Below are positions 41,518 through 42,471 of a DNA stretch of 64,000 nt, one piece after another; the stretch's first letter is position 1; every line of letters starts with the position of its first letter. Below the pieces are notes generated by a model. The model saw nothing but the letters and a program-made list of their open reading frames with translations, made no database searches and was not told the origin of the DNA. Location of the stretch: contig NC_016620.1 of assembly GCF_000210915.2 (NCBI RefSeq), positions 2,418,001-2,482,000 on the forward strand, written 5' to 3'. Origin of the DNA: Halobacteriovorax marinus SJ. Its GTDB lineage: Bacteria > Bdellovibrionota > Bacteriovoracia > Bacteriovoracales > Bacteriovoracaceae. A program made the translations under genes and the position numbers.

Positions 41518-41718
41518 ATGGCAAAGTGTAAATTTTGTAGCAAAGATATTTCATGGTTAAAAGAAGGGAGAAAATTCACTCCTATCGAAGGCGATGGAAC
41601 AATTCATAAATGTGAAGAAATGATGAGCTCTATGAAGAGTATCAAGAAGATGGAGCGCTCTTCCCTCTCTGCAGAGGAAATAAAGAAGTATGAAGAGGCC
41701 ATCAACAAGAAGAAATAA
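41518..41718 (+). CDS. Small putative zinc-binding protein
   Basis: 66 residues. The N-terminus has CKFC and later HKC (residues 4-7 and 31-33), a likely C-C-H-C zinc site, followed by a charged lysine-rich helix. AGGAAG precedes the ATG. It is co-transcribed with the single-domain response regulator. I recognise no named family. Confidence 0.65.
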   Translation: MAKCKFCSKDISWLKEGRKFTPIEGDGTIHKCEEMMSSMKSIKKMERSSLSAEEIKKYEEAINKKK

Positions 41719-41817
41719 TCCCTCTAAAGCCCCGTTAATAGGAAGATTCCACTTTTTTGCCCGCTAGAAGCCAGTGTTCATGGTAGGATATAGTTAGTAA
41801 GCAAGAAGGAGGCGCCT

Positions 41818-42471
41818 ATTAATCGCTGCTTTAGCCTATTTCTGACTTTCTTTTTTCTCATTCAGAGTGCCCACTCTAAGGACATCACTGAGCATCAAGA
41901 AGAACAGTCCTTACAATTTCAATGTATTCAAAAAATTCTCATGCACCCCTTTACCAAAACCCACTACCCCAACCTAACCACTGATCTCACTTCATCCATG
42001 TATTATGAATTCTTGGTTGAAATAGAACAATTCTGTCAGTGTAAAGGAAAGCTGCAAAAGAGTGAGAATATTGAAAAAAGGCATGACTACTTTAACTGGA
42101 GTTTTAAAGATAAGAGAGTTGCCTATGAGAAAGAAGATCAATGTATTCTAAAAAATTTCTCTGACCATGCTATTCATACAATTTATACCATCTCTTTAGA
42201 TACAAAAATTAGAAAGCACTTAAGTCTTCGCCTAAAGCATAGACTTCCAAGCTCAACACATCACTTGGCCACTGAGGACTCTAAGCTCCAGAGGTTTAGT
42301 TGCATAGAAGAAAAAATCTTAAAGAGATGCTCAAAGATAAAAAGCCTAAGAACAACATATAACTGTATTCAAACAGCAACTGATAGTTTTAAAGAGTTCG
42401 AAGATTACGAGCGCCAGTGTCCACAATTTGAAAATGAACACAGGATTGCTCGCAACGTAGATTTAATTTAA
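41818..42471 (+). CDS. Secreted cysteine-containing protein starting at an ATT codon
   Basis: 217 residues. A perfect AAGGAGG (41806-41812) stands five bases before ATT 41818. From that ATT the frame encodes a classic signal peptide, NRCFSLFLTFFFLIQSAHS, then the mature protein. No ATG, GTG or TTG occurs in frame between the upstream TAG (41791) and ATG 41941. A start at 41941 would lose the signal and has no ribosome-binding site. The mature protein has eight cysteines, suggesting disulfides in the periplasm. No family is recognised. It overlaps the convergent transporter gene by four bases. Confidence 0.75.
   Translation: MNRCFSLFLTFFFLIQSAHSKDITEHQEEQSLQFQCIQKILMHPFTKTHYPNLTTDLTSSMYYEFLVEIEQFCQCKGKLQKSENIEKRHDYFNWSFKDKRVAYEKEDQCILKNFSDHAIHTIYTISLDTKIRKHLSLRLKHRLPSSTHHLATEDSKLQRFSCIEEKILKRCSKIKSLRTTYNCIQTATDSFKEFEDYERQCPQFENEHRIARNVDLI

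Follow-up and report, generated by a model that had tools for sequence, protein, structure and literature searches.

The window considered here is a stretch of 64,000 nucleotides (NC_016620.1, positions 2,418,001 to 2,482,000) from the marine predatory bacterium Halobacteriovorax marinus SJ, whose genome is 3.44 Mb in size and is assembled in two contigs. It contains a gene, termed the ATT gene in the following, whose reading frame appears to begin with the rare start codon ATT rather than with ATG, GTG or TTG and whose product features an N-terminus resembling a signal peptide. The features of the locus are collected in Table 1.

The locus and its start site

The original prediction stated that a Shine-Dalgarno (SD) sequence, AAGGAGG, ends five bases before the ATT at 41818, and reading of the sequence bears this out, with CGCCT as the spacer. 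The SD sequence is complementary to the 3' end of the 16S rRNA, GGATCACCTCCTTT, which is present in three copies in the genome. The frame is closed upstream by an in-frame TAG, and the list of open reading frames (ORFs) agrees with the claim that no in-frame ATG, GTG or TTG lies between this stop and ATG 41941, the first canonical in-frame start. A start at 41941 would indeed remove the signal peptide, as had been pointed out, and the invariant cysteine C36 would be lost as well. The probable -10 box places the transcript start near 41801, which would probably give a leader of ~17 nt. Scanning with a promoter consensus returned no complete sigma-70 site upstream of the ATT gene.

Table 1. Positions of features at the ATT gene, numbered from the first letter of the window
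Feature	Positions	Strand	Remarks
Coding sequence from ATT	41818..42471	+	217 codons and TAA (42469-42471); sequence reading, orthologues
ATT start codon	41818..41820	+	same in 5/5 Halobacteriovorax-group species
SD sequence AAGGAGG	41806..41812	+	GGAGG core invariant across the genus
Spacer CGCCT	41813-41817		5 nt; sequence reading
Conserved block GGAGGCGCCTATTNATCG	41808..41825	+	17/18 positions are the same in the five species, with an unbroken run over the first 13; contains the palindrome AGGCGCCT
Signal-peptide-like N-terminus	41821..41877	+	NRCFSLFLTFFFLIQSAHS, then KD, after the start codon; by eye and hydropathy
Upstream in-frame stop TAG	41791-41793
Probable -10 box TATAGT	41789..41794	+	assigned by its form, which is TATA[GC]T across the genus and TATAAT in several genera outside it
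66-residue Cys-containing protein, MAKCKFCSKD...	41518-41718	+	between the response regulator and the ATT gene; conserved in the genus

Conservation of the start block and history of the codon

The genus comparison covers five species of the Halobacteriovorax group, the window species included. Gene order is kept as far as the compared stretches extend, and this common order supports the orthology of the five genes, whose products in the other four species are 72, 67, 53 and 53% identical to the window protein. The block GGAGGCGCCTATT is identical in 5/5 species at syntenic loci. A misread ATG, which the original prediction had named as a possible source of the ATT, is rejected because all five genomes carry the same block. 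The proposal of a genuine ATT start is therefore supported, as the ATT is invariant in the five species and the ATG at 41941 is not conserved.

The start block is more strongly conserved than the gene that follows it. The longest invariant run in the coding alignment of the five species (651 bases) is 7 bases versus 13 at the start block, and the richest 18-base stretch of this alignment has 15 invariant positions versus 17. Since the 13 invariant bases exceed the longest coding run, the DNA at the start block is under selection. Among the invariant residues that have four-fold codons, the same codon is used in all species in only 1 of 19, while GCG CCT ATT is identical in all five; this uniformity indicates that the block is conserved as DNA and not as the peptide EAPI.

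Profile searching of 129 genomes of the family yielded 20 homologues, five of which are the genus members. The original prediction had suggested looking for ATG at the same place in orthologues, and the 15 homologues outside the genus do begin with ATG (14) or GTG (1, L044), in contrast to the 5/5 ATT within it. The starts outside the genus head a signal-peptide-like stretch, and several stand directly behind an SD sequence at the corresponding place. The simplest history would be an ATG ancestor and a single change to ATT at the root of the genus, retained since then. Switches from AUG to AUU are very rare, as reconstructions in other bacteria found 1 among 61,358 ancestral AUG starts (PMC5622118). 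A profile scan with a 5-row alignment names Bacteriovoracaceae bacterium UBA3083 and Halobacteriovorax marinus isolate BD02T64 as relatives of the locus.

The parallel with infC that the original prediction drew also holds. ATT is the first codon of infC in each of the five species, where the gene begins GGAGGTGATTTATT behind GGAGGTGATTT, and likewise in the three other genera of the family that were checked; the genus thus uses ATT initiation. In the window genome infC lies outside the window (G000:C1 near 2041130, locus L142), and its extended SD sequence, TTGGAGGTGATTTATTAAAGAC, is nearly identical in the five species. The poly(A)-polymerase (pcnB)-like gene of the genus starts at ATG. A survey of 163 GGAGG-N4-8-ATT sites of the window genome, which sampled the genome rather than covering it in full and in which minus-strand sites lacking an A before GGAGG are under-sampled, looked for frames of at least 60 codons with an upstream in-frame stop, no canonical start after that stop and none just downstream of the ATT. 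Only the ATT gene and infC were obtained as obligate ATT starts among the sampled sites, and in a third candidate the codon following the ATT is ATG. Because the ATT and the SD sequence are invariant in five species and only these two genes emerge from the 163 sites, a chance origin of the ATT start is rejected. ATT 41818 is almost certainly the translation start of the gene, as judged from comparison of the sequences.

The encoded protein and its neighbours

By eye, the N-terminus resembles a signal peptide, with what appear to be a basic n-region, a hydrophobic core and a small residue at the presumed cleavage site. Its best 9-residue Kyte-Doolittle window is 2.9, and the orthologues range from 2.8 to 3.2. 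The signal peptide, if cleaved, would take the initiator residue off the mature protein. Alignment of 11 homologues revealed eight invariant cysteines, C36, C73, C75, C109, C162, C171, C183 and C201, which fit with disulfides in an exported protein. No Pfam family scored above the cut-off, NCBIfam gave no match, and a PDB sequence search and Foldseek found nothing significant for this protein. The AlphaFold model, which was built from three sequences, is helical with a mean pLDDT of 71. The product of the ATT gene is predicted to be an exported (periplasmic or secreted), Cys-rich and mostly helical protein.

The genes at the locus are arranged in the order seryl-tRNA synthetase, response regulator, 66-residue Cys protein, ATT gene, AI-2E-type transporter (on the opposite strand) and a 571-residue ORF. 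The response regulator is named by Pfam, while the seryl-tRNA synthetase and the AI-2E-type transporter are what we take these two neighbours to be from their sequences. Outside the genus, the 66-residue Cys protein is also encoded near the homologue of the ATT gene in L044 and L048, two genomes that belong to another genus.

Proposed mechanism, alternatives and known systems

In the proposed mechanism the initiator tRNA would read ATT 41818 as fMet, with the strong SD sequence on a very short leader setting the position. The ancestral ATG would have been replaced by ATT in the founding lineage of Halobacteriovorax, with the ATT then retained by selection because AUU initiation is inefficient and subject to discrimination by IF3. 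The level of the protein would be low and would rise when IF3 is limiting, parallel to infC; such control is plausible because these genomes also have an infC with an ATT start. We assign a probability of about 80% to this explanation as a whole, in which the ATT start is selected as weak, expression is low and initiation is sensitive to IF3; it draws on the sequence comparisons and on analogy with known genes. That IF3-dependent low expression is the reason why the ATT was kept is, by the same analogy, somewhat favoured. Two observations weigh against the explanation. In G003 and G004 an in-frame ATG stands seven codons upstream of the ATT, at which leaderless initiation may occur, and the invariance of the spacer CGCCT goes beyond what a start codon alone explains.

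The alternative that survives best accepts the ATT start and holds that it merely fixes a low level of expression, with no physiologically important regulation by IF3. E. coli pcnB is described in the title of Binns and Masters (2002), as cited in PMC5601948 and PMC13009471, as being translationally limited by AUU, and the effect of the AUU start of S. aureus cvfC1 was not medium-dependent (PMC13009471). This alternative is a serious contender at slightly less than even odds.

The invariant block could also be mainly a binding site for a regulator or a small RNA, with the ATT retained as a part of it. The spacer, which forms the palindrome together with the SD sequence, is as invariant as the SD sequence and the codon. 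However, each of the five genomes has a single exact copy of the 13-mer, and a repeated element or regulon is rejected on this account. The one-mismatch copies that were examined sit in reading frames or next to short frames and give no sign of a shared operator, and no RNA fold over the leader is conserved. A binding site as the main function of the block is therefore improbable.

A start upstream of the SD sequence, possibly leaderless, would use the ATG of G003 and G004, where the protein would begin MSKQEAPIYR..., and the non-ATG codon GTA 41797 in the window. This codon is also GTA in G002 and is TAC in G001. A start at this position would be without an SD sequence and would overlap the presumed transcript start, only a few bases downstream of TATA[GC]T. 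In addition, the codons GAG GCG CCT ATT carry no synonymous differences among the five species, in contrast to the remainder of the coding sequence. The upstream ATG is rejected as the general start, as it is absent in three species, has no SD sequence and lies at the presumed transcript start, and the alternative is very unlikely. The gain of the upstream ATG in two species (loci L002 and L003) is an observation of its own, and automatic annotation would probably choose that start there. Initiation at ATG 41941, which would give a cytoplasmic protein of 176 residues with an accidental frame upstream and is the form automatic annotation would choose as the first canonical start, is ruled out by the orthologues. 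The other four species have AAT, GGC, ACT and GAA at this codon, and the preceding 41 codons are conserved as protein (signal peptide, invariant C36), also in genera with an upstream ATG start.

Initiation at ATT 41818, the preferred reading, has counterparts in several known systems. Like infC of E. coli and of this genus, the ATT gene features a strong SD sequence and an ATT start that is kept within its group, and the window genome itself contains the infC control system. Unlike infC, which encodes the discriminating factor itself and thereby forms a feedback loop, it encodes an unrelated, probably exported protein, and its SD sequence is AAGGAGG/GGAGG only, whereas that of infC in the genus is extended (GGAGGTGAT). 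The Streptomyces sigR gene, a target of repression by IF3, begins with GTC in most Streptomyces species (PMC5472188). It shares with the ATT gene a non-canonical start kept genus-wide behind a strong ribosome binding site, and in both cases other genera have a canonical start in their annotation (PMC5472188). However, sigR encodes a sigma factor, uses GTC or GTT and depends on IF3 by experiment, whereas for the ATT in the present gene we infer this dependence. In S. aureus, the conserved non-canonical starts of cvfC1 (AUU) and ccpN (AUA) give, in poor medium, ~10% of the expression obtained with AUG (PMC13009471). The ATT gene resembles them in its genus-conserved non-canonical start, its strong SD sequence and its place outside infC; it differs in that their starts were verified by ribosome profiling and reporters and follow an extended SD sequence (PMC13009471). 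Their products are a small putative zinc-finger protein and a repressor, and that of the ATT gene is predicted to be exported. E. coli pcnB is likewise a second ATT-start gene beside infC in its own genome, and its weak start was proposed to limit expression, so far as its title and citing papers indicate. It differs in encoding poly(A) polymerase, the genus counterpart of which starts at ATG.

The ATT gene adds a genus-conserved example to the known class of genes with non-canonical starts. To our knowledge, well-supported ATT starts outside infC have been described for very few bacterial genes. In at least three of the species, gene finders that are limited to ATG, GTG and TTG would trim the signal peptide. 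A further proposal, which is speculative and rather unlikely, is that the invariant 13-base block acts as a control element in its own right, in which the ATT and the fixed spacer tie the exported Cys-rich protein to the level of IF3; if this were true, production of the protein could possibly follow whether the predator is growing or attacking, and the spacer would contribute a further signal. The genus-wide ATT, with ATG in sister genera, is good evidence for selection of a weak start codon, and the ATT gene makes it possible to test IF3-dependent control cleanly in a natural gene other than infC.
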